Positions 2 through 20,754 of a stretch of 64,000 nucleotides of DNA are shown here, piece after piece. A program made the position numbers and the translations under genes. The notes below the pieces were generated by a model. It had not been told where the DNA came from. It did not search any database and was given only the letters and a program-made list of their open reading frames with translations. Position 1 is the first letter of the stretch. Each line of letters opens with the position of its first letter. The DNA comes from Prevotella sp. MA2016. GTDB lineage: Bacteria; Bacteroidota; Bacteroidia; Bacteroidales; Bacteroidaceae. The DNA lies in contig NZ_JHUW01000010.1 of assembly GCF_000619825.1 (NCBI RefSeq), positions 62,001-126,000 of the forward strand. The letters run 5' to 3'.

Positions 2-607
2 GTCGAAACGCTGCCGTCAAATGCTTTGCTTCTTACAGATCGCTATCTGTTTGCTTTCAGAAAGCCAACGGCTGGTGATGGTATTGCTAACATCCGTGAT
101 ATCCTTAACGAGTTGTTACCCAAGCAGTTTCTTGGTGGTAATTACCATGTTACTATCATCTTTGATAATATGGCAAAAGATACAACATACACCTTTAATG
201 AAATCGCTTCTCAATTAGAACTGGTAAAGCAGCAGCTTAAGCGCGACTATTCTATTACGATGGAGTTGCTTGGTATCACCCCAGATTGCTCTATCTATAA
301 TAAACTTCATAACCGTATGATTATATCAAACTATTATATGGTAGAAGCCAGTCATAAGTTAGCTGCATTTAATAAAGAGGTAAGTACTGCTCGTCAGTTG
401 CTTTTTCCTTTATCACTCTTTACGGAGAGTAGTTTAAACAATAATTCAACTCCACCATTGGACGCGATAAACCAAACGCTTACTACTCTTCGTGACTTCT
501 CAAAAGCTCTTTCGTTACCATACACCAATCACGATAGCTACAACTATGCTGTTAATGGTAAGTTGATGGAAAAGTGCATTGCAATTAGAAATAGGCTCAT
601 CAAATAA
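2..607 (+). CDS. 5'-truncated unknown protein, first gene of the CHASE2/caspase operon
   Basis: The frame is open from base 2 and has no credible start inside the window, so the gene begins upstream. About 201 residues are visible. No signal peptide or membrane segment is seen in this part. The middle carries the stretch LHNRMIISNYYMVEASHK after a run of predicted strands; this faintly recalls the H-x-R/strand pattern of phospholipase-D-like (MIT C-terminal) domains, but I cannot confirm it. The stop is 14 nt before the CHASE2 gene on the same strand, so co-transcription is likely. Function unknown. Reality of the coding frame is supported by length, position and absence of a competing frame. 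Confidence 0.6.
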   Translation, partial: VETLPSNALLLTDRYLFAFRKPTAGDGIANIRDILNELLPKQFLGGNYHVTIIFDNMAKDTTYTFNEIASQLELVKQQLKRDYSITMELLGITPDCSIYNKLHNRMIISNYYMVEASHKLAAFNKEVSTARQLLFPLSLFTESSLNNNSTPPLDAINQTLTTLRDFSKALSLPYTNHDSYNYAVNGKLMEKCIAIRNRLIK

Positions 608-621
608 TAGCATACAGGATT

Positions 622-1932
622 ATGGGAATCATCGGAACAGTCATTTTAGTCATTATCGTTATCGTTGTTTTCTTAGCTTTAGTAATAATAAGAAAAGGTA
701 ATGTTTTAACATCGTTAAAAACACAGACGTTGAAAGTATTAAAGGGTATAATATCATATACGTTGCCTCCATTTAAGCAATCTTTGAAACAACTTGTTTC
801 TATCCGTTCCTTGTTGGCATGTATATTGGCTTTATTATTCTCTTTAGTGTTTAAACTAATGCTTTCTTCTTGTTTTTCAAGCGAATTAGGTGAAAGAGAA
901 ATTATTGATCCTATAAGTAGCGATTGGTACATAAATGCTTTTTTTACAAAATGCAATGAGAACCAGGATTCTATTCCGTCTGGTGATGAAGACATTGTGA
1001 TAATTAATATATTGGATTCCGTTTCTAGTCGATCGAATATAGCTAAAATAATCGAGACTATTTCAGATCAACATCCCAAGGTGCTTGGTATAGATATTTT
1101 TTTATCAGAGAACAATGATTCGACAAACGAAGCTGTTTTGAAGGCTATATTACACGCTAAGGACTCTACAAATATAGTAGTCTCTGCGTATTGGGATGAT
1201 GTAATGGATGAATTGCGTATTCCTTTTTATTCTTCTGTTCTTGATTCTACAGATTATGGCCTGGTTAATCATGTTAGTTACACTCAACTATGTACAAATT
1301 ATAATAATCACCCCACGTTCTCTGCGCAGGTCGCAAAAAAATATGGCATTGTTTCTATCCCCACCGATAAAATTGTTAACTATAGATATAAAGAATTTAG
1401 TGCAGATTGGATATCCGATGTAGATAGTATTTCCGTTGGCGACATCAGTAACAAAATAGTTTTGTTAGGGAATACATTCACTCCAAGTGACAAGAAAGAC
1501 CTTCCTTTTGTAGTCGGAGGAGTCAATCAGTTGTCCGGCGTCGAAATGTTGGGCTATGAGATTTCCTCTTTATTGGCGTTGAATAAGAAAATGGATATTT
1601 TTAAAACGCCTTTAGATTACTTAAGTCCTGTGATAAATCTGGCTGTATGTATATGTTCTCTCATGCTCTACTTATTCTTTGTTTTTATCATTAATTATAT
1701 CGGAGAATGCAGAAATAATTGGTGGTGGAAAATTATTATGATAATTGGAAAACTGTTTTTCTTGATAATTTGTGAATTATTGATAATTCAGTGTTGTTTC
1801 AGGCTAACAATGTATTGGCTAATTGTTCCTGATATTACATTGTTTATTATTGCAATTATATTTGTTGAAGAAATCCACAAGAATTTACCAAATATTACTA
1901 TAGGAAGATTATATTTACTACAAAAAAAATGA
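622..1932 (+). CDS. CHASE2-domain membrane sensor protein
   Basis: The 436-residue protein has an N-terminal membrane helix at about residues 3-22, a second hydrophobic segment near 65-85, a large extracytoplasmic domain and three hydrophobic helices after about residue 335. The middle domain has CHASE2 hallmarks: KVLGIDIFLSE near residue 153, then GDISNKIVLLGNTF and SGVEMLGYEISSLLAL. CHASE2 domains sense unknown extracellular or periplasmic signals and are usually fused to kinases or cyclases. Here no output domain follows, so the signal probably passes to a separate partner. Its stop codon overlaps the start of the caspase gene by 4 nt (ATGA), which implies translational coupling and makes the protease the obvious partner. 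Reads as A+T-rich compared with the 30-60 kb region. Confidence 0.85.
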   Translation: MGIIGTVILVIIVIVVFLALVIIRKGNVLTSLKTQTLKVLKGIISYTLPPFKQSLKQLVSIRSLLACILALLFSLVFKLMLSSCFSSELGEREIIDPISSDWYINAFFTKCNENQDSIPSGDEDIVIINILDSVSSRSNIAKIIETISDQHPKVLGIDIFLSENNDSTNEAVLKAILHAKDSTNIVVSAYWDDVMDELRIPFYSSVLDSTDYGLVNHVSYTQLCTNYNNHPTFSAQVAKKYGIVSIPTDKIVNYRYKEFSADWISDVDSISVGDISNKIVLLGNTFTPSDKKDLPFVVGGVNQLSGVEMLGYEISSLLALNKKMDIFKTPLDYLSPVINLAVCICSLMLYLFFVFIINYIGECRNNWWWKIIMIIGKLFFLIICELLIIQCCFRLTMYWLIVPDITLFIIAIIFVEEIHKNLPNITIGRLYLLQKK

Positions 1933-4259
1933 TGCGTATGAATACTTTAAAGTTCATGTTAATCGTTTTGATGTCAGCGATTCAAAACGTTTCATTTAGT
2001 CAAAATTACAAGTTGTACAGTGCTTATATGCCTGTAGAATTTCAAAAAGACGGGAAATGGATGAAGGTGATGCGTGGTGAAACAAAACTTAATAGCAATA
2101 CTTATTTGCGTTGTAAAAGTGATTTTACAATTAGGGAAATAGGCGGTGCCGAAAAATTGCATTTCTGTTCTCCATCTAAATCAGGTAAGAAGTTGGGTGA
2201 TTTGATAGAAAAGGTTGTTAATAAGAAAAAACAATCGACTGTAACTACGTGGTTTAGAAGTGGAAGTGCCTATGAAATATTGGAAATCGATTTACCAATA
2301 AAGAGTGACAGCTTGGATAATGTACCATACAATTTCCAATACCTCATAGTCGATGTAAACCATTTTGAAGATAATACTTGGGGTAATTTAGGTTTTCCTG
2401 CATTAAACGTGGATTCAATCGATCATTCAATACGATTTATCATGTTGCCAGAAACTGGTTATAATCTCAAAATGCGCAAGGTTTTATGCTCTCCATATAA
2501 TACAACAGCAGATTCTATCAATTGGCATATTAATGACTTGATTGAGAAAGTGGATGATAATCAGAAAAATATTGTGATGCTTTACCTTTCTAGTCATGGA
2601 GAACGAACAAAAGATAAAAAGTTCTGCTTTATAACATCTGATACAAAGTACGATTTTATAAATAAAGGAAATCTTACAAATTATATTTCTGGCACAGTAA
2701 TTAACGATTATGTTCGCAAACTTGTAGAAAAACGTGCTATTGTTTTATTATTTGTAGATGCTTGTTATGCTGGTTCTTTGATTTCGGAATTAAATAATGA
2801 CGATATTATTAAAAATGGAAGTGTTGCATATTTTATGTCAACAGATGGTGATTTGAAAGCGTATCAAGACTCGGATGGAAGTCCGTTTGCTGACGCTTTA
2901 ATAAAAGTTTTAACAAATGAGGAACAATTGTTCTTTGGCGAGAATGATAACAAAGTTACTCCATATTACTTAGAACTATACTTGCAGAAACATGTTAATA
3001 AAAAGCATATAGGACAGAATCCAAAGTCAATGCGTGGAAATGGACTTGATAAAGATTATGAATTATGGAAAATTAAACCTCTATTTACAAGAAGTTTGAT
3101 TGATGATTTAATAGAAAAGGCTGAGGGCGGTGATACTGAGTCAATGGTCAAGTTAGGCGATATATTCCTTTGTGGTAATGATGATAATAGCATTAGCCCT
3201 GATTATGGAAAGGCATACAATTATTATAAGACTGCTTATGTCAGAGGTAATCAAAACGCAACAGCAAAAGTAGGATTATGCCACTATTATGGCTATGGTG
3301 TTGATATAGATTATGATAAAGCCTTTGACCTCTTTTCTTTAGGAGAAAGTGAAGAGAAAGATTTGGCTAGATATTATTTAGGTGTTTGTTATGCCAAAGG
3401 ATTAGGAACCAAAAAGAACAAGAAACTTAGTAAAAAAGTTCTCTTGAAAATTGAAAAATGGTCTGATAAAGAGATAGTATCAGCGATGGAGAAAGAGCAG
3501 ATCCAGATTCCTGGTGTCGCGATTCTGTACAACGATGGTGCATTGTCGCATTTGTTTGAAAAAGAGTTGAATGAAGATAAAATTGTGGTCAAGTTTGAAC
3601 GTGCTGTTACTGATGGTACAACTGTTCCTGATATAGAATTTCAAGCCTCACTAGGTAAAGAAAAAGCACAAGCAATGATAGGAAAAATATATTTATATGG
3701 ATTAAGAAATACACCAGTTAATTATGATAAAGCCATTAAGTGGTTGTCAAAAGCCGTAAAGGCAGGAAATGCATCAGCTATGTGTGATATGGGGTATTGC
3801 TATGCTTATGGTTATGGCGTACAAAAAAATATTCAAAGAGCATGGGAACTGTTCCAAAAAGCAGCTAATAAAGGCTATTCTTTAGCATATGTTATTATTG
3901 GTAATTACTATTTCATTGGTTCAGAAAACGTTGAACAAAACGATAGAGAGGCTGCTGAGAATTGGCTAACAGCTGCGCGTATGGGCGATGTTATCGGTTT
4001 GTACAAATTAGGCTTATGTTACAAATATGGAATCGGTGTCGAACAGAATGATAAAGAAGCCGTTAAATGGCTAACAAAATCAGCAAAAAAAGATTATGAG
4101 AAAGCCCAATACGAATTAGGTAACTATTATCTTTTTGCAGGTGACTATAAGACCGCTTATAAGTGGTTGAGTAAGTCAAAGAAAAATGGTGTTCCCGAAG
4201 CAAAGAAATTGATAGAACAGCATTTTTATGTTGATGGTAGGGTAAAACCTGCAAATTGA
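1929..4259 (+). CDS. Exported caspase-family protease with C-terminal Sel1 repeats
   Basis: The 776-residue protein starts with a signal-peptide-like segment (residues 1-25). A peptidase C14-like domain follows: the catalytic His lies in YLSSHGE (His223) and the catalytic Cys in VDACYAGS (Cys279), with the usual strand before each. From about residue 395 to the end there are several Sel1/TPR-like repeats of the form A..LG..Y..G.GV..D..KA..W, a protein-binding solenoid. Caspase-like proteases are known effectors of bacterial conflict and cell-suicide systems. It overlaps the CHASE2 gene by 4 nt and ends 18 nt before the first possible, 48 nt before the preferred, cas13b start. The target protein is unknown. 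The predicted export is odd for a partner of a cytoplasmic nuclease and should be borne in mind. Confidence 0.85.
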   Translation: MMRMNTLKFMLIVLMSAIQNVSFSQNYKLYSAYMPVEFQKDGKWMKVMRGETKLNSNTYLRCKSDFTIREIGGAEKLHFCSPSKSGKKLGDLIEKVVNKKKQSTVTTWFRSGSAYEILEIDLPIKSDSLDNVPYNFQYLIVDVNHFEDNTWGNLGFPALNVDSIDHSIRFIMLPETGYNLKMRKVLCSPYNTTADSINWHINDLIEKVDDNQKNIVMLYLSSHGERTKDKKFCFITSDTKYDFINKGNLTNYISGTVINDYVRKLVEKRAIVLLFVDACYAGSLISELNNDDIIKNGSVAYFMSTDGDLKAYQDSDGSPFADALIKVLTNEEQLFFGENDNKVTPYYLELYLQKHVNKKHIGQNPKSMRGNGLDKDYELWKIKPLFTRSLIDDLIEKAEGGDTESMVKLGDIFLCGNDDNSISPDYGKAYNYYKTAYVRGNQNATAKVGLCHYYGYGVDIDYDKAFDLFSLGESEEKDLARYYLGVCYAKGLGTKKNKKLSKKVLLKIEKWSDKEIVSAMEKEQIQIPGVAILYNDGALSHLFEKELNEDKIVVKFERAVTDGTTVPDIEFQASLGKEKAQAMIGKIYLYGLRNTPVNYDKAIKWLSKAVKAGNASAMCDMGYCYAYGYGVQKNIQRAWELFQKAANKGYSLAYVIIGNYYFIGSENVEQNDREAAENWLTAARMGDVIGLYKLGLCYKYGIGVEQNDKEAVKWLTKSAKKDYEKAQYELGNYYLFAGDYKTAYKWLSKSKKNGVPEAKKLIEQHFYVDGRVKPAN

Positions 4260-4307
4260 TATGCAACATACAAGTTTATGTTACTTAAATTAAAAACATA
4301 TAGTATT

Positions 4308-7300
4308 ATGAGTAAAGAATGCAAAAAACAGCGGCAGGAGAAGAAACGTAGACTACAGAAAGCCAACTTCAGTATCAGTCTAACGGGCAAGCATGTTTTT
4401 GGCGCCTATTTTAATATGGCGCGTACCAATTTTGTTAAGACCATCAACTATATTTTGCCGATTGCAGGAGTACGTGGAAACTATTCCGAAAACCAAATAA
4501 ACAAAATGCTTCATGCTCTGTTTTTGATACAGGCAGGACGCAATGAAGAATTGACTACTGAGCAGAAACAATGGGAGAAGAAACTGCGTCTTAATCCAGA
4601 GCAGCAAACTAAATTCCAAAAGCTCCTCTTCAAACATTTCCCTGTACTCGGCCCAATGATGGCAGATGTGGCTGACCATAAAGCCTATCTCAATAAGAAG
4701 AAATCAACGGTGCAGACAGAGGATGAGACTTTTGCCATGCTTAAAGGTGTGTCATTGGCTGACTGCTTGGATATCATCTGTCTCATGGCTGATACTCTCA
4801 CAGAATGCCGCAATTTCTATACCCACAAAGACCCTTACAACAAGCCGTCGCAATTAGCTGATCAATATCTGCATCAGGAGATGATTGCCAAAAAGTTGGA
4901 TAAGGTAGTGGTTGCAAGCCGGCGTATTTTGAAAGACCGCGAAGGGTTGTCTGTTAATGAAGTAGAATTCCTAACTGGAATCGACCATTTGCATCAAGAG
5001 GTGTTAAAAGATGAATTTGGTAATGCGAAGGTAAAAGATGGCAAGGTGATGAAGACTTTTGTTGAATACGATGATTTCTATTTTAAGATCTCTGGTAAAC
5101 GTCTTGTCAATGGCTATACCGTCACAACTAAGGACGATAAGCCTGTTAATGTAAACACTATGTTGCCAGCCCTTTCCGACTTTGGACTACTATATTTCTG
5201 CGTCCTGTTCCTTTCAAAACCATACGCTAAATTGTTTATTGACGAGGTTCGTCTTTTTGAATACAGCCCGTTTGATGACAAAGAAAACATGATTATGAGC
5301 GAGATGCTCAGTATCTACCGTATTCGTACTCCACGCCTGCATAAGATTGATAGTCATGATAGCAAGGCAACACTGGCTATGGATATCTTCGGAGAACTGC
5401 GTCGTTGCCCCATGGAACTCTATAACTTGCTCGACAAGAATGCTGGACAGCCATTCTTCCACGATGAAGTGAAACATCCCAATAGTCATACACCTGATGT
5501 TTCAAAACGATTGCGATATGACGACCGTTTCCCAACGTTGGCCCTTCGTTATATCGACGAAACTGAGTTATTCAAGCGCATTCGCTTTCAGCTCCAGTTA
5601 GGTTCTTTTCGTTACAAGTTCTACGATAAGGAGAATTGTATCGACGGAAGAGTACGTGTGCGTCGTATCCAGAAAGAAATTAATGGATATGGACGAATGC
5701 AAGAAGTGGCTGACAAGCGTATGGATAAATGGGGAGACCTGATTCAAAAACGAGAAGAACGTTCAGTGAAGCTGGAACACGAAGAACTATATATTAACTT
5801 GGACCAGTTTCTTGAGGATACAGCCGATTCAACTCCTTACGTTACAGATCGGCGACCCGCCTACAATATTCATGCTAATCGTATTGGATTGTATTGGGAA
5901 GATAGCCAGAATCCTAAACAATATAAAGTGTTTGATGAAAACGGAATGTATATTCCAGAACTAGTTGTGACTGAAGATAAAAAGGCTCCCATTAAGATGC
6001 CTGCACCTCGTTGTGCACTTAGCGTCTACGACCTGCCTGCTATGCTTTTCTATGAATACCTTCGCGAACAACAAGATAATGAGTTCCCTTCTGCCGAGCA
6101 AGTTATTATTGAATATGAGGACGACTACCGCAAGTTCTTCAAGGCTGTAGCAGAAGGAAAACTGAAGCCATTTAAGAGGCCCAAAGAGTTCCGTGATTTT
6201 TTGAAGAAAGAATATCCGAAACTCCGGATGGCTGATATACCCAAGAAATTGCAACTTTTTTTGTGTAGTCATGGTTTATGTTATAACAATAAGCCTGAAA
6301 CGGTGTATGAACGTTTAGATAGACTTACTTTGCAGCATCTTGAAGAACGCGAACTTCATATTCAGAATCGTTTGGAGCACTATCAGAAAGATCGTGATAT
6401 GATAGGCAATAAGGATAATCAATATGGAAAAAAGAGCTTTTCCGATGTTCGCCATGGTGCTCTTGCACGTTATCTGGCTCAAAGTATGATGGAGTGGCAA
6501 CCTACCAAACTTAAGGATAAAGAAAAGGGTCATGATAAGTTAACGGGATTAAACTATAATGTTCTTACAGCCTATCTTGCCACCTATGGCCACCCCCAAG
6601 TTCCAGAAGAGGGTTTTACACCTCGCACTTTGGAGCAGGTTTTAATAAATGCACATCTCATAGGAGGCAGTAATCCTCATCCTTTTATAAATAAGGTTTT
6701 GGCTCTTGGCAACAGGAATATTGAGGAACTATATCTGCACTATTTGGAAGAAGAACTCAAACATATCCGCTCTCGTATACAGTCATTGTCGAGTAATCCT
6801 TCTGACAAGGCATTATCTGCATTACCTTTTATTCATCACGACCGCATGAGATACCATGAACGTACCAGCGAAGAGATGATGGCTTTGGCAGCACGCTATA
6901 CCACTATACAACTGCCAGATGGTTTGTTTACTCCATATATCCTGGAAATACTGCAAAAGCATTATACTGAGAACTCTGATCTGCAAAATGCTCTCAGCCA
7001 AGATGTTCCAGTCAAGCTTAATCCAACGTGCAATGCTGCTTATCTCATAACATTATTCTATCAGACAGTATTAAAGGATAATGCCCAGCCTTTCTACTTG
7101 TCAGATAAGACCTACACTCGGAATAAAGATGGTGAAAAAGCAGAGTCATTCTCGTTTAAACGCGCCTATGAATTGTTTTCCGTATTAAATAATAACAAGA
7201 AGGATACTTTCCCATTTGAAATGATTCCGCTGTTCCTAACAAGCGATGAGATTCAGGAACGCCTGTCTGCAAAACTCCTTGACGGCGATGGAAATCCTGT

Positions 7301-8276
7301 CCCAGAAGTAGGAGAAAAAGGTAAACCTGCAACAGATAGTCAGGGTAATACTATCTGGAAGCGACGCATCTATTCTGAAGTGGATGATTACGCTGAAAAA
7401 TTGACTGACAGGGATATGAAAATTAGTTTCAAAGGCGAATGGGAAAAACTGCCACGCTGGAAACAAGATAAAATTATTAAGCGAAGGGATGAAACTCGCC
7501 GGCAGATGCGCGACGAACTGTTGCAACGGATGCCACGTTATATACGTGATATCAAGGACAACGAACGTACACTTCGTCGCTATAAGACGCAGGATATGGT
7601 ATTGTTTCTCCTGGCTGAGAAGATGTTTACAAATATCATCAGCGAACAGAGCAGTGAATTTAATTGGAAACAGATGCGGCTTTCCAAGGTATGTAACGAG
7701 GCTTTCCTGCGTCAGACGCTTACTTTCCGTGTTCCAGTAACAGTTGGTGAAACAACCATATATGTAGAACAAGAGAATATGTCGCTCAAGAACTATGGTG
7801 AGTTCTATCGTTTCCTTACAGATGATCGTCTGATGAGTCTGTTGAATAACATTGTGGAAACGCTAAAACCTAATGAGAATGGCGACCTTGTTATCCGTCA
7901 TACCGATTTGATGAGCGAGCTGGCTGCATACGATCAGTATCGTTCTACCATCTTCATGTTGATTCAGAGTATCGAGAACTTGATTATTACGAACAACGCT
8001 GTACTTGATGACCCTGATGCAGATGGCTTCTGGGTTCGTGAAGATCTTCCTAAACGCAATAACTTTGCATCATTATTGGAACTGATAAATCAGTTGAATA
8101 ATGTGGAGTTGACTGACGATGAACGTAAGTTACTCGTCGCCATCCGTAATGCCTTCAGTCATAATAGTTATAACATTGACTTCTCTCTGATTAAGGATGT
8201 TAAGCATCTGCCAGAAGTCGCCAAAGGCATTCTGCAACATCTGCAATCGATGCTTGGCGTAGAAATAACGAAGTAG
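4308..8276 (+). CDS. cas13b: Cas13b, type VI-B CRISPR RNA-guided RNase
   Basis: Counting from the ATG at 4308 the protein has 1322 residues. It has one R-x4-H HEPN motif near each end, as in Cas13b: RNFYTH (Arg168/His173) and RNAFSH (Arg1280/His1285). Other familiar stretches are YGRMQEVADKR, PAPRCALSVYDLPAMLFYEYL, ITGLNYN-like LTGLNYNVL, and the end HNSYNIDF...LPEVAKGI. Cas13b binds a crRNA with the repeat on its 3' side, is activated by matching RNA and then cuts RNA generally. An earlier in-frame ATG at 4278 would add ten residues (MLLKLKTYSI); I prefer 4308 because MSKECKKQ is a more typical beginning. About 100-200 residues longer than well-studied Cas13b proteins. Both catalytic sites appear intact. 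Confidence 0.97.
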   Translation: MSKECKKQRQEKKRRLQKANFSISLTGKHVFGAYFNMARTNFVKTINYILPIAGVRGNYSENQINKMLHALFLIQAGRNEELTTEQKQWEKKLRLNPEQQTKFQKLLFKHFPVLGPMMADVADHKAYLNKKKSTVQTEDETFAMLKGVSLADCLDIICLMADTLTECRNFYTHKDPYNKPSQLADQYLHQEMIAKKLDKVVVASRRILKDREGLSVNEVEFLTGIDHLHQEVLKDEFGNAKVKDGKVMKTFVEYDDFYFKISGKRLVNGYTVTTKDDKPVNVNTMLPALSDFGLLYFCVLFLSKPYAKLFIDEVRLFEYSPFDDKENMIMSEMLSIYRIRTPRLHKIDSHDSKATLAMDIFGELRRCPMELYNLLDKNAGQPFFHDEVKHPNSHTPDVSKRLRYDDRFPTLALRYIDETELFKRIRFQLQLGSFRYKFYDKENCIDGRVRVRRIQKEINGYGRMQEVADKRMDKWGDLIQKREERSVKLEHEELYINLDQFLEDTADSTPYVTDRRPAYNIHANRIGLYWEDSQNPKQYKVFDENGMYIPELVVTEDKKAPIKMPAPRCALSVYDLPAMLFYEYLREQQDNEFPSAEQVIIEYEDDYRKFFKAVAEGKLKPFKRPKEFRDFLKKEYPKLRMADIPKKLQLFLCSHGLCYNNKPETVYERLDRLTLQHLEERELHIQNRLEHYQKDRDMIGNKDNQYGKKSFSDVRHGALARYLAQSMMEWQPTKLKDKEKGHDKLTGLNYNVLTAYLATYGHPQVPEEGFTPRTLEQVLINAHLIGGSNPHPFINKVLALGNRNIEELYLHYLEEELKHIRSRIQSLSSNPSDKALSALPFIHHDRMRYHERTSEEMMALAARYTTIQLPDGLFTPYILEILQKHYTENSDLQNALSQDVPVKLNPTCNAAYLITLFYQTVLKDNAQPFYLSDKTYTRNKDGEKAESFSFKRAYELFSVLNNNKKDTFPFEMIPLFLTSDEIQERLSAKLLDGDGNPVPEVGEKGKPATDSQGNTIWKRRIYSEVDDYAEKLTDRDMKISFKGEWEKLPRWKQDKIIKRRDETRRQMRDELLQRMPRYIRDIKDNERTLRRYKTQDMVLFLLAEKMFTNIISEQSSEFNWKQMRLSKVCNEAFLRQTLTFRVPVTVGETTIYVEQENMSLKNYGEFYRFLTDDRLMSLLNNIVETLKPNENGDLVIRHTDLMSELAAYDQYRSTIFMLIQSIENLIITNNAVLDDPDADGFWVREDLPKRNNFASLLELINQLNNVELTDDERKLLVAIRNAFSHNSYNIDFSLIKDVKHLPEVAKGILQHLQSMLGVEITK

Positions 8277-8296: not shown

Positions 8297-9646
8297 ATGG
8301 CAACAACAAAATATTCACATGCATTCCTGGTGGGTAGTTTTAACGGAATAATTACGCCCCAAGAATTGGATCAAGAATGGGAGAGAGTTAATAATCAAGA
8401 CGAGTATGAGTGGATCTGTTCTATATATTATAAAGGACATGTAGATGCCATGCTTGATGTTAATAATTGTCGTCCTCCTTTTTTGAAAGACGTATGTCAT
8501 TACAAATTGTCTTTTGGCGGAATAGATGCCAAAGGCGAGAATATCGTTGGTAAGGAGATTGAGATGAAGATGAAAAAGAACATGGGGAAAGACGAATTTA
8601 TGTATCGTTTCCGCTTAATGAATCTTCATTTGTACTTCTTTCCATATAATATTGCGCTTCTTGCTATAGAAATAGATGATACAGGAACAGAGCTTAATGA
8701 ACTGACTGCTGCGCATTCTTCTTTGACACAATGTAACACATATGCTAGAGAAGAAATTAAATTCGCTTTTTCTTCTTTATCTCGTTTTCTTTCTAATCCT
8801 TCAGGTATTCTGGGGGTAGGAAACAAGTTTAAGTTATATCAAGTAATTGAGATAAATTCAGAGAAGATAGAGGATAGAATGTTGTACGAAATTGCAACCT
8901 CATCGCCTATCGGCTGTGTTGGCACCAGACATCCGTTAGCTCCGTCAGAGCAATACTATAATAAAATCATTGGACTTAATACTGTTTCGGCTTTTAATGA
9001 CTGGAAGGGTCTGGCATTGATGGATAGTTTTACGATGATAAGCAATGCAGAAAAACGTGATGATTCATGGGATAAACATTTCTATTTGTGGAACAATCAT
9101 TACTTCCAATTAATATATCTACGTTGCTTATTTGAGAAAACGTTCTGTTTTCGTCAGAATATTGCCTATAGAATGGGTGAAAGTTCACCAGATCTGTCAA
9201 AGATGATATCAGATATGGAAAGGTATTATTTCTATAACAAAATATCATATAATTTCCTTCCTAATCTTCTTTATGAGTCCATGTCCAAGGGCATGGAACT
9301 TAAAGAAGAACGAGATGAATTGTCAAAACAGATTAAAGAAAGGGCCAAGGAAGAAGAAGCAATAACAAAGGAACAAGAGAAAGCTGCAGCCCAAACTTTA
9401 AAAGAACAACAGGAGGAGCAGAAAGAAAAGGATGACAAAAGGTTTAACAACATTCTTGCTTATGTTTCAATCTTCGCTGTGTTCTCAGTAATATGGGATA
9501 TCTGTTCTATTCTTATGGCTTCTTCATATATGTTAAAAGAATCTGTTTGGACAGCTAGAACTCTATTTTTGTTTGGGGTCGTATTATCATTGTTCTTTAT
9601 TTGGCTAATCAAGTATAACAGCAAAAAAAGAAATGAAATTAAATAG
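8297..9646 (+). CDS. CorA-like two-helix membrane protein, putative type VI-B accessory
   Basis: The 449-residue protein begins 20 nt after cas13b. It has a long soluble N-terminal part, a charged coiled coil at about residues 335-385 rich in Glu/Lys/Gln, and two hydrophobic helices at about 390-410 and 422-442 with a short loop between and a basic tail. This is the topology of CorA-type ion channels, and FFPYNIALLAIEID resembles the N-terminal domain of CorA-like proteins from defence loci. No clear GMN loop is seen. The known type VI-B accessories Csx27 and Csx28 are about 200 residues with other layouts, so this is not an obvious member of either. A possible R-x6-H string (RDDSWDKH) is present but I do not claim a HEPN site. 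Membrane action downstream of Cas13b is inferred. Confidence 0.7.
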   Translation: MATTKYSHAFLVGSFNGIITPQELDQEWERVNNQDEYEWICSIYYKGHVDAMLDVNNCRPPFLKDVCHYKLSFGGIDAKGENIVGKEIEMKMKKNMGKDEFMYRFRLMNLHLYFFPYNIALLAIEIDDTGTELNELTAAHSSLTQCNTYAREEIKFAFSSLSRFLSNPSGILGVGNKFKLYQVIEINSEKIEDRMLYEIATSSPIGCVGTRHPLAPSEQYYNKIIGLNTVSAFNDWKGLALMDSFTMISNAEKRDDSWDKHFYLWNNHYFQLIYLRCLFEKTFCFRQNIAYRMGESSPDLSKMISDMERYYFYNKISYNFLPNLLYESMSKGMELKEERDELSKQIKERAKEEEAITKEQEKAAAQTLKEQQEEQKEKDDKRFNNILAYVSIFAVFSVIWDICSILMASSYMLKESVWTARTLFLFGVVLSLFFIWLIKYNSKKRNEIK

Positions 9647-10103
9647 AATAAATATCTCTCCAGAAGTCCGCTCACATCTTGCTACGCACTTCCATCAAGA
9701 TCTTCCGGGCTCAAAATTCTATAGCGAATCGCCTGAGGATTTGTTAGAGGAAGCTATGCGATTATTTCCAGACACCTTCCGTAGGGCAATACCTGATGAT
9801 GATGGACGTATTCGCATCTCCCTGACATTTCCCAGAGAAATTGGTACTAGTAATGTGGCGAGCATTGGAGAGTTGTCTGATGCAGAAATAAAACGGATAG
9901 AGATGGTTGATAGGAATGGCAGGAAGGTTCGTTTTGTTAATTCTGATAGGATAATTCCAACCCATGAATGTCAGATTATCCTTTCTTCTGATTGGCAACT
10001 TATTACAATGTTTCCCGGTGAGTTGGCTCCACCATTGCCAGAATCTCCAGATATTCATGATGACTACTGGGATAATCATGTATTTGTAGAGCCAGAATCT
10101 TAG
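9633..10103 (+). CDS. Small unknown protein, third gene of the type VI-B unit
   Basis: The 156-residue acidic protein starts inside the end of the CorA-like gene (14-nt overlap, out of frame), so translation of the two is probably coupled. No signal peptide, membrane helix or recognised family. The region from RNGRKVRFVNSDRII to ILSSDWQLITMFPGEL ends in a hydrophobic strand with T-M-F-P. That weakly recalls the last strand of BECR-fold RNase toxins, such as EndoU- and RelE-like families, but this is only a resemblance. It lies between the accessory gene and the CRISPR array, so a role in the CRISPR response (effector, inhibitor or chaperone of the CorA-like protein) is inferred from position alone. 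Confidence 0.6.
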   Translation: MKLNRINISPEVRSHLATHFHQDLPGSKFYSESPEDLLEEAMRLFPDTFRRAIPDDDGRIRISLTFPREIGTSNVASIGELSDAEIKRIEMVDRNGRKVRFVNSDRIIPTHECQIILSSDWQLITMFPGELAPPLPESPDIHDDYWDNHVFVEPES

Positions 10104-10252: not shown

Positions 10253-10779
10253 GTTGTAGAAGCTTATCGTTTGGATAGGTATGACAACATTTTTTTACTA
10301 CGCCTGATATAACCGACTACATGTTGTAGAAGCTTATCGTTTGGATAGGTATGACAACTAACTCAATATGTCTACGAGACTCAGGATAATCAGTTGTAGA
10401 AGCTTATCGTTTGGATAGGTATGACAACTTGCAACTTTGAGCTCCAGTTTCCAAGGCTCCAGTTGTAGAAGCTTATCGTTTGGATAGGTATGACAACTTG
10501 TACGAGGCTCACACCAGTGGTCGTGAGACTTGTTGTAGAAGCTTATCGTTTGGATAGGTATGACAACTTCCAATTGTAGATAGCTTGCATTTTTTTGTTG
10601 CGTTGTAGAAGCTTATCGTTTGGATAGGTATGACAACTTATTTATATTTTACCTGTCATAAAGTTGTTTAAGAGTTGTAGAAGCTTATCGTTTGGATAGG
10701 TATGACAAACTTGTAATGATTTTTGCCTTTATACTGTGAGGGTGTTGTAGAAGCTTATCGTTTGGATAGGTATGACAAC
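10253..10779 (+). CRISPR. Type VI-B CRISPR array, 8 repeats and 7 spacers
   Basis: Eight 36-nt repeats begin GTTGTAGAAG and end GGTATGACAAC. They start at 10253, 10323, 10393, 10462, 10532, 10602, 10674 and 10744. Spacers are 34, 34, 33, 34, 34, 36 and 34 nt. Seven repeats are identical; the seventh ends AAA instead of AAC, as if one A were inserted before the final C. The ends GTTGT and ACAAC are complementary, and TATC/GATA can pair inside, as in Cas13b repeats. The GTTG...CAAC orientation is the one used in known Cas13b crRNAs, so the array should be transcribed on the + strand like cas13b. No adaptation genes lie nearby, so new spacers may depend on another locus. Confidence 0.98.
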
Positions 10780-12179: not shown

Positions 12180-12728
12180 TTAGTCGCCGTTGGGCTCGTC
12201 GATAGGCTCGTAGCCACCGCCACCGGTATTGCCACCAGTGTTTCCACCGGTATTGCCACCGCCATTGCTTGGCTCGTCGGGGTCCTCCACCGTACCAGGG
12301 TCAGTACTGGTCACACGCTTAATCTCCTTACCATCGCGGTCGTAGCAGGTAATCTGGATGGCTGTGCCTGCCAGCTCGTCCTTCAGATCCACCGCAGGGG
12401 TGAAGATGATGCGGCGACTGGTTACGAGGCCCGCTTTCACCTCATCTACTTTGGCCACACTCTTGGCGCGGATACCGAATCGCATGGTTCCCAAACCTGG
12501 CAGCGCAACCGAGTGACCCTCAGTGGCCCATGCCTTAATCACCTCGCCAGCAGCATCCCAGCAGGCCTGCATAATGCCTTTGCTAACTCCGCTGCGCAGG
12601 GCAGCCTCCTTAATCACCTTTTCCTGAGAGAGTGAGGTGTACAACTCCGGCATCATGATGTAGCGATAAGTGCCCTCATACTTGCCAATCTTCTGCAACT
12701 TTTCCTGTGCTTTAACTTTCAATGCCAT
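12180..12728 (-). CDS. HU/IHF-like DNA-binding protein with glycine-rich tail
   Basis: The 182-residue protein has a DNABII (HU) fold at about residues 20-135. It includes KVIKEAALRSGVSKGIMQACWDAAGEVIKAWATEGHSVALPG as the helical and turn part and GLGTMRFGIRAKSV as the start of the arm. It belongs to the Bacteroidales HU-HIG type, longer than classical HU (90 residues). The tail after residue 145 is acidic and glycine-rich with repeated GGNT. It probably binds DNA without strong sequence preference. Smalltalk follows in the same transcript. In other Bacteroidales this pair commonly accompanies a VirE/DUF3987 primase gene; here that gene lies 14 kb away beyond the restriction operon. Confidence 0.88.
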   Translation of the reverse strand: MALKVKAQEKLQKIGKYEGTYRYIMMPELYTSLSQEKVIKEAALRSGVSKGIMQACWDAAGEVIKAWATEGHSVALPGLGTMRFGIRAKSVAKVDEVKAGLVTSRRIIFTPAVDLKDELAGTAIQITCYDRDGKEIKRVTSTDPGTVEDPDEPSNGGGNTGGNTGGNTGGGGYEPIDEPNGD

Positions 12729-12820
12729 AATTCTAGTTTAATTTTTGTGTTGTTGTAAAATAATTTTTAATTATGAATGTTTAATGTTTCATGTCTCAAC
12801 TCCGATGTTGGTTTTGCGGC

Positions 12821-12887
12821 CACGTGAGGGAGATTTTCTTAGTGCACGTGGGAGAATCTTTTTCCTCGTGTGGGAGCATTATCTCCA
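12821..12887 (-). repeat. Three tandem CTCCCACGTG-type repeats in the HU leader
   Basis: On the minus strand the leader holds three related units of about 22-26 nt, each ending in CTCCC[AT]CACG/CACGTG and preceded by an A-rich run (12867-12887, 12845-12860, 12821-12840). CACGTG is itself a palindrome. They lie inside the predicted 170-nt untranslated leader of the HU mRNA. Role unknown. Confidence 0.6.
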
Positions 12888-12904
12888 TCTTCATCTTGAC
12901 AATG

Positions 12905-12912
12905 CAAAGGTA
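12905..12912 (-). promoter_or_regulatory. -7 box of the HU gene
   Basis: The minus strand reads TACCTTTG, with a TTG about 21 bp upstream. Transcription from here gives a leader of roughly 170 nt before the HU start. Confidence 0.6.
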
Positions 12913-12983
12913 CGAAATTTTCGTCATATAATACAATATCAACTGTTAATGAATTGTTAAAACCTGTGAGTATACCGACATGA

Positions 12984-13148
12984 GCACAGAGCACAGAGCA
13001 CAGTTTTCTCATGAGTACCTCAAAAATGTAAACACAAAACATACTTTATATATAATATATATATTATATATAAAGTAATTAATAATTGTATAAATCCTCC
13101 TCATAATTGTACCCCCTCCACAAATAAACTGTGCTCTGTGCTCTGTGC
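12984..13148. repeat. 22-bp inverted repeat flanking a palindrome
   Basis: GCACAGAGCACAGAGCACAG plus TT at 12984-13005 is repeated exactly in inverse orientation at 13127-13148. Each arm is itself a short tandem of AGCACAG. The 121 bp between hold a 34-bp palindrome. The left arm recurs in direct orientation at 29137-29160. The block is the untranscribed-looking space between the divergent HU and hsdM genes; no coding frame is apparent in 12729-13322. Confidence 0.85.
13043..13076. repeat. Perfect 34-bp A+T palindrome
   Basis: The sequence from ACTTTATATATAATATA to its exact reverse complement TATATTATATATAAAGT has no mismatch and no loop. It could form a cruciform or be a protein-binding site. 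Confidence 0.9.
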
Positions 13149-13250
13149 TATTTTCGATATTTTATGTTATGTTACACCCTTTTGGGGGGGAATTTTACAT
13201 AAATTCCACTCCATTTCAAAATTTTATTTAAAATTATTCCTGCAACTAAT

Positions 13251-13278
13251 TTTGTTTGTAGGAAAATGGTTAAATTTG
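13251..13278 (+). promoter_or_regulatory. Promoter of the restriction operon
   Basis: TTTG (13251-13254) and TAAATTTG (13271-13278) match the Bacteroidota pattern with 16 bp between; another TTTG overlaps at 13255. hsdM begins 44 nt after the -7 box. Confidence 0.55.
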
Positions 13279-13322
13279 TAGCCAATTATATATCAACAGA
13301 TGAACTGAGGATTTAGAATAGA

Positions 13323-15134
13323 ATGATTAATATAAGAAAACTTGAATCAGAACTGTGGGAGTCAGCCGACCTGCTACGTCAGGGAAGCAAATTAACAAGC
13401 AGTCAGTATTGTATGCCTGTGCTGGCCCTGCTGTTCTTACGCTACGCATATAGCCGCTACAAAATGGTAGAGGCAGAGATCTTGGAAAATCGCCCCAGCC
13501 GTGGTGGTCGTGTGATGCCTGTAGAGGCCAGCGACTTTGCGGCAAAAAGTGCATTGTTTCTCCCTAAGGAAGCACAGTTCGACTATTTGGTAAATCTGCC
13601 AGATAACATTATTTCGGCAGGTTTAAAAACAAAAGATGGTCAGGACATCAATTCGTTAGGAGAAGCCGTAAACAATGCCATGCAGCTTGTGGAAGACCAG
13701 AGCGAACAGCTGACAGGTGTTTTGCCTAAGACCTATACCAGCTTTGCTGACGACCTGCTGCGTGAACTTCTTCGTATCTTTAATAATAAAACGATTGATG
13801 AGGTAGGAGGCGACGTGATTGGCCGTATCTATGAATACTTCTTGTCGAAGTTTGCCAAGGCTGTCGCCAGCGACGATGGTGTCTTCTTCACGCCAAAGTC
13901 ATTGGTGAAAATGTTGGTCAACGTACTGGAACCTAAACAGGGCGTCATGCTCGATCCTGCTTGTGGTAGTGGTGGCATGTTCGTACAAACAGGTGACTTC
14001 GTAAACCAGGCTGGTCTCAGCGCCAATACACAGATGACATTCTTTGGTCAGGAGAAAGTGGAATACAACGCCCAGCTCTGTTTGATGAACATGGCCGTTC
14101 ACGGACTCAACGGAAGAATCATTTCAGGCGACGAAGCCAACTCATTCTATCACGACGCGCATAACCTGGCTGGTAAGTGCGACTATGTGATGGCTAATCC
14201 TCCATTCAATGTGGATAAGGTAAAGGCTGAGTCAGCTTCTGCTGCCGGTCGTTTGCCATTTGGTTTGCCTGGCGTAAACGCTAAAACCAAAGAGATTGGT
14301 AACGCCAACTATCTTTGGATTAGCTATTTCTACGCCTACCTGAACGAACACGGTCGTGCAGGTTTTGTTATGGCCAGCTCAGCCACCGACAGTGCAAACA
14401 AGGATCGTGATATCCGCGAGAAACTGGTTCGTACAGGCGACGTAGATGTGATGGTAAGTGTGGGTAATAACTTCTTCTATACACTCTCGCTTCCTTGCTC
14501 ATTGTGGTTCTTCGATCGCAACAAAAACGCAGATATCCGTGATAAGGTGCTCTTTATTGATGCCCGCAACTACTATACAGTAGTAGATCGTACGCTGAAT
14601 GAATGGACGGAATGGCAATTGCGTAATCTGCAGGCCATTGTACATCTGTATCGTGGCGAGAAAGGTAAGTATCAGCAGTTGTTGGCCGATTATAAGGCTG
14701 TATTAGGTGACACAACGGTTGCTTCTGCTCAAAAGGCACTTGATGAGCAGAAGGCCGCAGCCAAAGAGGCAATTGCAAACGCTCAGCGCAAGGAAAAGAA
14801 ACGCATTGAGGCAGAACAAAAAGTTATAATTGACGAACTGGAAGATACACTCGAGACTGCTCGTCAACATGAATGGCTCACAGAAAAGTTTGGCGATGGC
14901 GAATATCAAGACGTGCTGGGGCTCTGCAAGATTGCAACCATACAAGAGATTGAGGAAAAGAACTATTCGCTCACTCCGGGAGCCTACGTCGGTGTTGCTG
15001 AAGTCGAGGACGATGGCGTTGACTTCCATGAGCGTATGAATGAAATCCATGCCGAACTCGCCTCTCTCAACAAAGAAGCCAATGTGCTAATGAGTGAGAT
15101 CATGAAGGAATGGGAAACTCTTAACACGAAGTAA
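13323..15134 (+). CDS. hsdM: Type I restriction-modification methyltransferase subunit
   Basis: The 603-residue protein carries an N-terminal HsdM helical domain (residues 1-150). An adenine-N6 methyltransferase core follows with motif I DPACGSGGMF at about residue 211 and the catalytic NPPFN at about 292. A coiled coil rich in Ala/Glu/Lys spans about residues 465-520. It uses S-adenosylmethionine to methylate the site chosen by HsdS, protecting host DNA. It is the first gene of a six-gene + strand operon and ends 3 nt before the DUF1016 gene. Length is slightly above the usual 480-540 because of the coiled-coil insertion. Confidence 0.95.
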   Translation: MINIRKLESELWESADLLRQGSKLTSSQYCMPVLALLFLRYAYSRYKMVEAEILENRPSRGGRVMPVEASDFAAKSALFLPKEAQFDYLVNLPDNIISAGLKTKDGQDINSLGEAVNNAMQLVEDQSEQLTGVLPKTYTSFADDLLRELLRIFNNKTIDEVGGDVIGRIYEYFLSKFAKAVASDDGVFFTPKSLVKMLVNVLEPKQGVMLDPACGSGGMFVQTGDFVNQAGLSANTQMTFFGQEKVEYNAQLCLMNMAVHGLNGRIISGDEANSFYHDAHNLAGKCDYVMANPPFNVDKVKAESASAAGRLPFGLPGVNAKTKEIGNANYLWISYFYAYLNEHGRAGFVMASSATDSANKDRDIREKLVRTGDVDVMVSVGNNFFYTLSLPCSLWFFDRNKNADIRDKVLFIDARNYYTVVDRTLNEWTEWQLRNLQAIVHLYRGEKGKYQQLLADYKAVLGDTTVASAQKALDEQKAAAKEAIANAQRKEKKRIEAEQKVIIDELEDTLETARQHEWLTEKFGDGEYQDVLGLCKIATIQEIEEKNYSLTPGAYVGVAEVEDDGVDFHERMNEIHAELASLNKEANVLMSEIMKEWETLNTK

Positions 15135-15137
15135 ATC

Positions 15138-16226
15138 ATGGCAAACGAGATAAAACCAATAGGGGCAACCGATATTTCAGCAATGAACGCAGTAGTTGGA
15201 ATTTTGATGACTGACCTCCGCCAAATCATTGACGAAGCGCGAATTCATGTGGCATCTACAGCCAACTATGAGCTTACCATGATGTACTGGCATATTGGCG
15301 AGCGAATTAACCGCGACGTGCTTGGAAATGAACGAGCTGATTATGGAAAGCAGATTGTCGCGACAGTGTCACGACAATTACAGAATATCTACGGACACAA
15401 AGGATTTGACGTAAAAAGCCTGTATCGTCATATGCAGTTCGCAACCCTTTTTCCTGATTCTCAGATTGTCTCGACAGCGTCGCGACAATTATCATGGTCG
15501 CATTTCGTGGAGCTACTGCCATTGAAAGACGAACTGCAACGTGATTATTATTTCACGCTGGCATCAGCCAATAGATGGAGCGTTCGTCAACTTCGCAAAG
15601 AAATTGATGGAATGCTATACGAGCGTACTGCATTGTCTTCAAAGCCTGAGGAAGTTGTAAAACAGGAACTTGCCAATGTCAGAGATAATAAAGTTGTTTC
15701 TCCTGATGTAGTATTCAAAAGCCCTTATTTCCTTGAATTTGCTGGGTTAAAAGGCTTGTATAGCGAGAAGGACTTGGAAGACAGTCTTGTGGCACATCTG
15801 GAACAGTTCATTCTTGAACTTGGAAATGGGTTCTGCTTTGTTGAGCGTCAAAAGCGAATGATTATTGATGGAGAGGATTTCTATCTTGACCTGCTATTCT
15901 ATCACCGCAAACTACATCGCCTTATTGCCATTGATTTGAAACTTGGTCGTTTCAAAGCTCAATACAAAGGTCAGATGGAACTGTATCTACGTTGGCTTGA
16001 ACAGAATGAAATGGAGCCTGGTGAGGAAAGCCCGCTTGGGTTACTGCTTTGTACTGAGGGCAGTGAGGAACAGATTGAACTTCTCCAACTCGACAAATCG
16101 GGCATTAAGGTCGCTCAGTATATGACTGAACTGCCTCCGCGTGATGTCCTCGTGCAACAGATACAGAAGTCCTTTGAAGTTGCAAAAGCTAAATGGGGAA
16201 ACGAAAGAAAGGAGGATGAGGTATGA
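15138..16226 (+). CDS. DUF1016 (YhcG) PDDEXK nuclease-family protein
   Basis: The 362-residue protein has the DUF1016 N-terminal helical domain (ELTMMYWHIGERI, QLSWSHFVELL) and a C-terminal PD-(D/E)xK domain. There YLDLLFYHRKLHRLIAIDLK supplies the Asp and the D-x-K catalytic residues (about residues 254-273). Members are frequent inside type I restriction operons and are thought to bind or cut nucleic acid, but their exact job is not settled. It sits between hsdM and hsdS and overlaps hsdS by 4 nt (ATGA). Two near-identical palindromic segments lie in its coding sequence and encode the repeated peptide SRQL. Confidence 0.88.
   Translation: MANEIKPIGATDISAMNAVVGILMTDLRQIIDEARIHVASTANYELTMMYWHIGERINRDVLGNERADYGKQIVATVSRQLQNIYGHKGFDVKSLYRHMQFATLFPDSQIVSTASRQLSWSHFVELLPLKDELQRDYYFTLASANRWSVRQLRKEIDGMLYERTALSSKPEEVVKQELANVRDNKVVSPDVVFKSPYFLEFAGLKGLYSEKDLEDSLVAHLEQFILELGNGFCFVERQKRMIIDGEDFYLDLLFYHRKLHRLIAIDLKLGRFKAQYKGQMELYLRWLEQNEMEPGEESPLGLLLCTEGSEEQIELLQLDKSGIKVAQYMTELPPRDVLVQQIQKSFEVAKAKWGNERKEDEV
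15351..15380 (+). repeat. Intragenic palindromic repeat, copy 1
   Basis: CAGATTGTCGCGACAGTGTC plus ten bases; its core 15355-15377 is an inverted repeat with one mismatch (TTGTCG/CGACAA). It is 27/30 identical to copy 2, 111 bp away. Confidence 0.8.
15462..15491 (+). repeat. Intragenic palindromic repeat, copy 2
   Basis: CAGATTGTCTCGACAGCGTC plus ten bases; the core 15466-15488 is again an inverted repeat (TTGTC/GACAA). Because of the symmetry both strands encode a similar V-[AST]-[TA]-[LS]-SRQ peptide. Confidence 0.8.
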
Positions 16227-17380
16227 GGAAGCCAATAACTATAGGTGATTTGGGCACTATCATTACAGGTAAAACACCTCCTACCACAAATAAGAACTAT
16301 TATGGTGATTATGCGGTGTTCATTAAGCCTACTGATATTTCTGAGCAATGCAAGTTTACCTACGAGACAGAAGAAATGTATTCAAAACTTGCTGCAGAGA
16401 AGTATGAAAGTAGCTTAATTCCTAAAGGTGCTATCTGTGTTCCATGTATTGGAACAATAGGAACAAAGATGACGATGGCTCCTTGTGATTGTTATACCAA
16501 CCAATCCATTAATTCTATCGTCTGTAATGATAGATATGATAATGAGTATGTTTACTATCTGATTAAAAATTTCCTACCAGGACTAAAATCCTATAATTTA
16601 GGAACGGCATCAGGTAGAGAATATGTTTCAAAATCTAACTTTGAGAAGATTGAGTTAGTTGCTGAGCAAGACAAAACAATTCAAAAGAAAATCGGAGAGT
16701 TCCTCTCTCGCTACGATTCTTTGATAGAAAACTATCGGAAGCAGATAAAGCTTTTGGAGGAAGCCGCGCAGCGCCTTTATAAAGAATGGTTTGTTGACCT
16801 CCATTTCCCCGGCCACGAAAACACAAAAATCGTAGATGGTGTGCCAGGGGAGTGGGAGAAGAAGAAACTGGTAGAAATTGCAGAACTAAAGGCTGGAGGT
16901 GATAAACCTGAAATAGTTTCAGCTAAAAGGACAAATGAATGTTCGGTACCTATTTTTTCAAATGGTACTACTAATGAGGGACTATATGGCTATACCAATC
17001 TTCCTGTAATTTTAGAACAAAGTGTGACAATATCTGCAAGAGGAAGTGTTGGTTATACAGTGTTTAGGAGAACCCCTTTTGTTCCTATAGTAAGGCTAAT
17101 TTCTGTAACTCCTCATAATATCTATGTTGGTTACATATTTTACTGTTTAAAATCTACTACGCTAGATAGTAATGGGGCTGCGCAACAGCAAATAACTATA
17201 CCAATGATTAGGAATAAGGAAATAATGATTCCATCAAAAGGTATACTTGAGTTATTCGAAAGTCAAACAGAACCAATTTTTAATCAAATAGACATTTTAA
17301 AAGAACTAATCCGCCTCCTCACCGAGGCCCGCGACCGCCTGCTTCCCAAGTTGATGAGTGGAGAAATAAAAGTCAGTTAA
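16223..17380 (+). CDS. hsdS: Type I restriction specificity subunit
   Basis: The 385-residue protein has two target-recognition domains separated by conserved helices. The first spans about residues 1-150 and is followed by LLEEAAQRLYKEWFVDLHFPGHE, a typical central spacer. The second spans about 210-350 and ends with the distal spacer LIRLLTEARDRLLPKLMSGEI. HsdS determines the DNA sequence recognised by the methylase and nuclease. It overlaps the DUF1016 gene and is followed after 2 nt by mcrB. The recognition domains read as A+T-richer than the spacers, common for domains exchanged between strains. Confidence 0.94.
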   Translation: MRKPITIGDLGTIITGKTPPTTNKNYYGDYAVFIKPTDISEQCKFTYETEEMYSKLAAEKYESSLIPKGAICVPCIGTIGTKMTMAPCDCYTNQSINSIVCNDRYDNEYVYYLIKNFLPGLKSYNLGTASGREYVSKSNFEKIELVAEQDKTIQKKIGEFLSRYDSLIENYRKQIKLLEEAAQRLYKEWFVDLHFPGHENTKIVDGVPGEWEKKKLVEIAELKAGGDKPEIVSAKRTNECSVPIFSNGTTNEGLYGYTNLPVILEQSVTISARGSVGYTVFRRTPFVPIVRLISVTPHNIYVGYIFYCLKSTTLDSNGAAQQQITIPMIRNKEIMIPSKGILELFESQTEPIFNQIDILKELIRLLTEARDRLLPKLMSGEIKVS

Positions 17381-17382
17381 AT

Positions 17383-19500: not shown

Positions 19501-19503
19501 AAA

Positions 19504-20742: not shown

Positions 20743-20754
20743 CAACTTAATAAT

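Follow-up and report, generated by a model that had tools for sequence, protein, structure and literature searches.

Type VI-B CRISPR-Cas systems are accompanied by two named accessory proteins, Csx27, a repressor, and Csx28, at first an enhancer, which were first described as small membrane proteins that modulate Cas13b, and the part of PMC8209922 available to us gives the VI-B accessories a size of about 200 aa. In the accessible text of the 2025 classification (PMC12669027), Csx28, the accessory of VI-B2, is reported to assemble into an octameric pore, which depolarises the inner membrane once Cas13b has been activated. The same text mentions a notable diversity of VI-B associated genes, of which Csx27 and Csx28 are named, and, in the sections at hand, it puts CorA in types III-B and III-D only. 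The CorA effector of the Bacteroides fragilis type III-B system has a soluble N-terminal domain, a stalk and two C-terminal helices, and it binds SAM-AMP, mutation of either R152-R153 or D219-D220 having abolished immunity, according to the portion of PMC10600005 consulted. In a search of the open-access literature, no description came to light of a CorA relative that accompanies Cas13 or a type VI system, nor of CorA with a STAND NTPase or of a CorA-like antiphage family of the kind described here.

The window that was analysed, 64,000 nucleotides of the genome of Prevotella sp. MA2016 (G000:C9:62001-126000), holds a type VI-B locus, in which a Cas13b with a pair of HEPN motifs is accompanied by a CRISPR array with repeats of 36 nt. 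The cas13b gene (4278-8276, + strand) codes for a 1332-aa type VI-B effector that scores 546.7 bits with NF038190 (cut-off 150) and 693 bits with the PADLOC Cas13b model, and both RxxxxH motifs are present (RNFYTH and RNAFSH). The CRISPR array (10253-10779, +) comprises eight repeats and seven spacers of 33-36 nt; three of the seven spacers, trimmed to 28-29 nt, gave no exact match in viral contigs. The order of genes on the + strand is CHASE2, caspase-Sel1, cas13b, a gene of 449 codons, a gene of 156 codons and the array. Since a type I restriction-modification cluster follows 3' of the array, the cas13b locus appears to lie within a defence island; this cluster, recognised by eye, extends over 13323-23895 and includes HsdM-like (13323-15134), HsdS-like (16223-17380) and HsdR-like (20755-23895) genes.

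Upstream of cas13b, and on the same strand, the end of a 321-aa gene enters the window (ORF 26-607) and is followed by a gene for a CHASE2 membrane protein (622-1932, +; PF05226, E 6e-15) and another for a caspase (C14) and Sel1 protein with a signal-peptide-like N-terminus (1929-4259, +; PF00656, E 9e-13; Sel1, E 1.4e-45). The caspase was considered as an effector of Cas13b and set aside, because the related cas13b locus L009, described below, lacks both the CHASE2 and the caspase-Sel1 genes, because CHASE2 genes are found without Cas13b, next to other kinds of gene, in three other genomes (L108-L110), and because of the secreted-like start of the protein. A caspase relative lies near two of those three CHASE2 genes (phmmer, 2.5e-8 and 1.7e-7), with no such match at L110. 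The CHASE2 and caspase-Sel1 genes are thus probably a separate module that neighbours the cas13b unit.

The first-pass annotation had pointed to a 449-residue gene behind cas13b, and exactly such an ORF, starting with ATG, is found at 8297-9646 (+), 20 nt separating it from the cas13b stop at 8276. Its product was also described there as having a soluble part, a coiled coil and two C-terminal helices, with which the hydropathy profile and the distribution of charged residues agree: a charged, E/K/Q-rich, coiled-coil-like stalk at about residues 335-383 (9299-9445, +; bounds set by eye) is followed by predicted membrane helices at residues 390-408 (9464-9520, +) and 420-438 (9554-9610, +), that is, by the two membrane helices and short loop of a CorA-type C-terminus. 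In the soluble part, the stretch LHLYFFPYNIALLAIEIDD (8624-8680, +) can be aligned by eye with LNLYxTGxGIxxF of the type III CorA effectors. Members of the CorA family carry a signature motif, GMN, where the first membrane helix ends; in the 449-aa protein, FSVIWDICS in the helix 1 region aligns at that place. The AlphaFold2 model of the monomer, for which the input was two sequences (this one and its L009 relative), has a pLDDT of 34.8, too low to be of use. No meaningful match to the protein was obtained in Pfam, NCBIfam, PADLOC or PHROGs, nor in PDB by sequence, and no relative was found in IMG/VR, in PLSDB plasmids or in phages. Pfam CorA (PF01544) was absent among its matches at E up to 5, and the PADLOC CorA models gave no direct match at E up to 10.

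That the protein is neither Csx27 nor Csx28, as had also been proposed, is borne out by the NCBIfam models, which miss it and find the respective accessories of other Cas13b loci. The Csx28 model NF040556 (cut-off 50) matches three of three Csx28 controls (L067, L071 and L072; 99.8-284 bits), the Csx27 model NF040557 (cut-off 65) three of three Csx27 controls (L058, L061 and L022; 110-314 bits), and neither matches the L009 relative. Like Csx28, the protein is a membrane protein coded directly behind cas13b for which a Cas13b-activated action can be proposed, but the Csx28 proteins in our data have 175-186 aa and one membrane segment. Csx27 is likewise a membrane accessory adjoining cas13b, but it has 212-235 aa and four membrane segments. 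With the type III-B CorA effectors the protein shares the general layout, a detectable sequence relationship, location in a CRISPR locus and about equal length. It differs from them in that no Cas10 was detected in its genome, no NrN or lyase gene was recognised as neighbour of its gene, the RR and DD pairs and GMN are absent, and the partner is a 156-aa protein.

The relationship to CorA was examined with three profiles: A1, built from the family of the window protein (seven members: the protein itself and those of L009 and L011-L015); A3, from the CorA-like proteins found beside other cas13b genes in L060, L062 and L069; and A5, which joins A3 with four type III-type CorA proteins and contains no member of the window family. 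Among 676 ORFs, A5 matched the window protein with E 1.4e-6 and its L009 relative with 1e-7, the best ORF outside both families having E 0.018. The window protein scores 22.6 bits, the highest value among 198 scored block shuffles being 12.6 and that of the reversed sequence -10; the match concerns mainly residues 304-444, the first 330 residues alone scoring -2.5 bits. In the reverse direction, A1 matched the type III CorA proteins of L090 (3.7e-6) and L089 (1e-4) and the A3 protein of L069 (7.3e-5), and more weakly those of L086 (0.033), L062 (0.17) and L087 (0.46). Profile-profile comparison of A1 gave 45% (local) and 95% (global) with A3, 94% (local, in the N-terminal part) with A5, and 31% (local) and 80% (global) with type III CorA alone, the local values for A3 and for type III CorA alone being weak.

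Library models point in the same direction by way of the relatives. The PADLOC CorA models match six of the seven A1 members, the window protein being the exception (L013, 2.1e-12 over residues 33-437; L014, 2e-11; L009, 1e-6; L011 and L012, about 9e-6; L015, 4.7e-4), two of the A3 proteins (L060, 4.7e-7; L062, 4.2e-5; no match for L069) and the four type III-type proteins tested (L086, L087, L089 and L090). The Pfam CorA cut-off is passed by L086, L087 and L090, with L088 and L089 slightly below it, and GMN is present in L086, L087 and L090 and absent from L089, from the A3 proteins and from all A1 members. The complete type III relatives in our data have 483-517 aa. When A3 was searched against 393 order-level genomes, seven were matched, corresponding to two of the A3 loci themselves and five others, G706, which holds L069, having returned no row; four of those five further loci adjoin Cmr-type genes, Cmr1 being confirmed by model in two. 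Since the window protein alone misses the Pfam and PADLOC CorA models, its link to CorA rests on the profiles and on the relatives. The claim of the first-pass annotation that the protein is CorA-like was upheld in part: a relationship to type III CorA is seen with profiles in both directions and against shuffled controls, but a Pfam CorA match, GMN, a direct PADLOC CorA match and the SAM-AMP residue pairs are all absent, and of the HMM searches it recommended those with the library models for CorA, Csx27 and Csx28 were all negative, while the custom A5 profile matched. Judged from these sequence comparisons, common descent of the window family and the type III CorA effectors is very probable, and the 449-aa protein is a putative CorA derivative and not an ordinary or textbook CorA.

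A search with the single sequence in 301 family-level genomes matched eight, including its own; two of the loci, L007 and L008, were rejected as family members since the match is limited to the C-terminal coiled-coil and membrane end. A scan of GTDB contigs identified L009, on a 10.7-kb contig of a Bacteroidaceae MAG (genome G786). There, a Cas13b 68% identical to that of the window is accompanied by a 437-aa CorA-like protein (48% identity to the window protein over the alignment), a 155-aa gene (69% identity to the 156-aa one) and an array whose repeat resembles that of the window. That contig was compared with the initial 16 kb of the window together with 16.5 kb of DNA fetched from the region upstream, and the alignment was limited to four features: the array and the genes for Cas13b, the CorA-like protein and the 156-aa protein. 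These form a conserved unit, in which cas13b is followed by the CorA-like gene, the partner gene and the array.

Measured along the branches of a Cas13b tree, the closest of the other Cas13b proteins are those of L060, L062 and L069. In each of these loci, a 438-634-aa CorA-like protein of the same layout is encoded directly upstream of cas13b; in L069 the two genes share a strand, with 13 nt between them, and in L060 and L062 they are divergent. We examined 24 genomes for CorA-like genes, namely 23 of the 24 that exceeded the Cas13b cut-off (G177 was left out) and G786; A5 matched in three of them and A1 in three. Five of the six CorA-like genes in Cas13b genomes adjoin cas13b and the sixth (G468) is on another contig; because G000 and G786 were chosen for having the gene, the unselected count of genomes with the gene adjoining cas13b is 3 of 22. 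In a Cas13b tree of 23 rows (23 of 26 hits, those below 850 aa from L083, L066 and L079 having been dropped, and without L040, a second Cas13b of G357, and the broken L050 of G177), the five rows with an adjacent CorA-like gene fall on one side of a single branch and need one change, a value that none of 500 shuffles reached; the category 'other' in this tree includes loci cut by contig ends. The branch holding all the CorA rows is poorly supported (55/39; recovered in 53% of bootstrap trees), and the CorA-like gene may have entered this Cas13b clade by a single gain or by two.

Two further observations were made among these loci. In L069, a 1256-aa protein with three AAA domains is encoded on the same strand at 12190-15960, 107 nt upstream of the CorA-like gene and cas13b. 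Weak matches to the Cas13b profile were found in L080, L081, L082, L076, L075 and L077, where ORFs of 1079-1205 aa adjoin small membrane proteins with one to three helices; these are possibly divergent Cas13 systems with other accessories.

The partner gene (156 aa; 9633-10103, +) has its first 14 nt in common with the 3' end of the CorA-like gene. Its product has no confident match in Pfam, NCBIfam, PADLOC, PHROGs or PDB, and its AlphaFold2 model, with a pLDDT of 45.6, is likewise too poor for use. As a query in 251 family-level genomes, it matched G000 and one doubtful 106-aa ORF in G142, ribosome-hibernation-like by eye, which was taken as a chance match because its E value is 0.012, against 6.5e-7 for a true relative. 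That relative, a 208-aa protein in L119 (G468:C46), was recovered with a profile among 860 ORFs and is 27% identical to the 156-aa protein; it scores 25.4 bits, none of 248 scored shuffles exceeding 6.2, and the next unrelated ORF has E 0.012. In the three loci with a partner gene it is the next gene downstream of the CorA-like one, with overlaps of 14, 14 and 4 nt in the window, L009 and L119, respectively. In L060, L062, L069 and the STAND loci, the search with the partner profile was negative. The 156-aa protein may be a keeper, an assembly factor or a regulator.

L119 also shows the CorA-like gene in a different setting, since there a TPR-SpoIIE protein (679 aa), a CorA-like protein (439 aa; A1 profile, 1.7e-48) and the 208-aa protein are encoded in one run at 396-4389, on a contig in which no cas13b was found. 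Another setting is provided by L011-L015, whose CorA-like proteins are homologous to the window protein over the full length, with 28-30% identity; these differ from it in that no Cas13b is near and no 156-aa partner was found. Their gene is divergent from one for a protein of 1364-1403 aa (two ORFs in L015), and L123 contains a sixth such divergent pair, in which the large neighbour is cut by the end of the locus. The large neighbours are homologous to each other in all six loci inspected. Two that were tested match Avs2 weakly (7e-9 to 9e-9), and that of L013 has an NPHP3_N STAND ATPase domain slightly above the cut-off. PP2C genes lie near L011, L013 and L014 (the last named by eye), and a Ser/Thr-kinase-like gene, also by eye, near L013. 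The divergent pair of CorA-like protein and STAND-type ATPase looks like an undescribed defence system. In a separate locus (L091:1-5475), a CorA-like protein with GMN adjoins two others, a two-helix protein of 144 aa and an ATPase-kinase-TPR protein of 1311 aa, and no CRISPR gene was recognised by eye in 12 kb. The putative CorA-derived effector family thus recurs with Cas13b, STAND and TPR-SpoIIE proteins.

The residues implicated in SAM-AMP immunity were looked for in the alignment. The type III relatives L087, L089 and L090 have GRR (161, 155 and 147) and DDRM (242, 230 and 215), which by position we infer to correspond to R152-R153 and D219-D220 of the B. fragilis protein. Both pairs are absent from the window, L009 and A3 proteins; in the A3 proteins the first site is still basic, with HK or RK. 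The Cmr2 model found nothing in the five Cas13b-CorA genomes, G000 included, and was positive in two of two type III controls; the Csm1 model also found nothing in the five genomes, one control (G404) being weakly positive and a fragment being found in the STAND genome G071. No enzyme that makes a second messenger was recognised beside the genes. With no Cmr2 or Csm1 in five genomes and the residue pairs gone, a messenger made by Cas10 is unlikely, and it is for the same reasons that we propose a trigger other than SAM-AMP.

We consider it probable that the 449-aa protein is a CorA-derived membrane effector of the type VI-B system, switched on downstream of Cas13b, and not by SAM-AMP, and that the 156-aa protein serves as its dedicated partner. 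The protein would oligomerise as CorA does and would be silent at rest, either checked by the 156-aa partner or assembled with it. Recognition of the target RNA by Cas13b, and the general RNA cutting that ensues, would lead the CorA-like protein to open and the membrane to depolarise, a role proposed by analogy with Csx28; RNA cleavage would be supplemented by dormancy or death of the cell, as it is by Csx28 in VI-B2. The most likely trigger would be Cas13b activity itself, through contact with activated Cas13b, through RNA fragments or through the loss of a short-lived partner. It could also be that the CorA-like protein and its partner are a self-contained cassette, toxin-antitoxin-like or of independent defence, that merely lies beside cas13b without being under its control, as the same pair beside TPR-SpoIIE in L119 and the members adjoining STAND ATPases in all six inspected loci might suggest. 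We regard this as unlikely, because the window and L009 share exactly cas13b, the pair and the array and nothing else aligns, because three further loci have a CorA-like gene, more distantly related, next to cas13b, and because a large sensor-like neighbour is present in all settings, for which reason the cassette looks rather like an effector for hire.

The same neighbours bear on the proposal that the 449-aa protein modulates Cas13b itself rather than damaging the membrane. Both known VI-B accessories were first described as modulators, in the part of PMC8209922 at hand, but neither the Csx27 nor the Csx28 model matches, and since the relatives pair with proteins as different as STAND, TPR-SpoIIE and Cas10, a Cas13b-specific regulator is quite unlikely. 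Opening of the protein by a nucleotide second messenger coming from elsewhere in the cell, SAM-AMP or another, as in type III, would fit the CorA-like C-terminal region common to it and its type III relatives, which are SAM-AMP effectors as far as the available text of PMC10600005 goes, but the Cmr2 and Csm1 results in G000 and the other four genomes, the loss of GRR and DDRM and the lack of a recognised messenger enzyme beside the genes make it very unlikely. That the protein is an ordinary CorA-type transporter of divalent cations, whose gene lies here by chance, would fit the two-helix C-terminus, but the Pfam match and GMN are missing, genes of this kind are repeatedly found next to cas13b and other genes of immune type, and this reading is extremely improbable. 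A bolder version of the effector reading, to which we give only tentative credence, is that of a portable killing cassette of CorA-like protein and partner wired to at least four sensors (Cas10, STAND, TPR-SpoIIE and Cas13b), the Cas10 setting working through SAM-AMP and without a partner of the 156-aa type, while in VI-B the gate would be opened without a messenger, by Cas13b RNase removing the co-translated partner.

CorA effectors have so far been tied to Cas10 and SAM-AMP. If the type VI-B effector role proposed here is true, the membrane part would be separable from the second messenger and could be driven by other sensors, the 449-aa protein would join Csx27 and Csx28 as a third type of VI-B accessory, and a Cas13-triggered membrane response would become testable in a second, unrelated protein, for which the 156-aa partner may be the switch. 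The recurrence of the family suggests that one type of membrane-damaging part has been coupled by bacteria to several immune sensors that are unrelated to each other.
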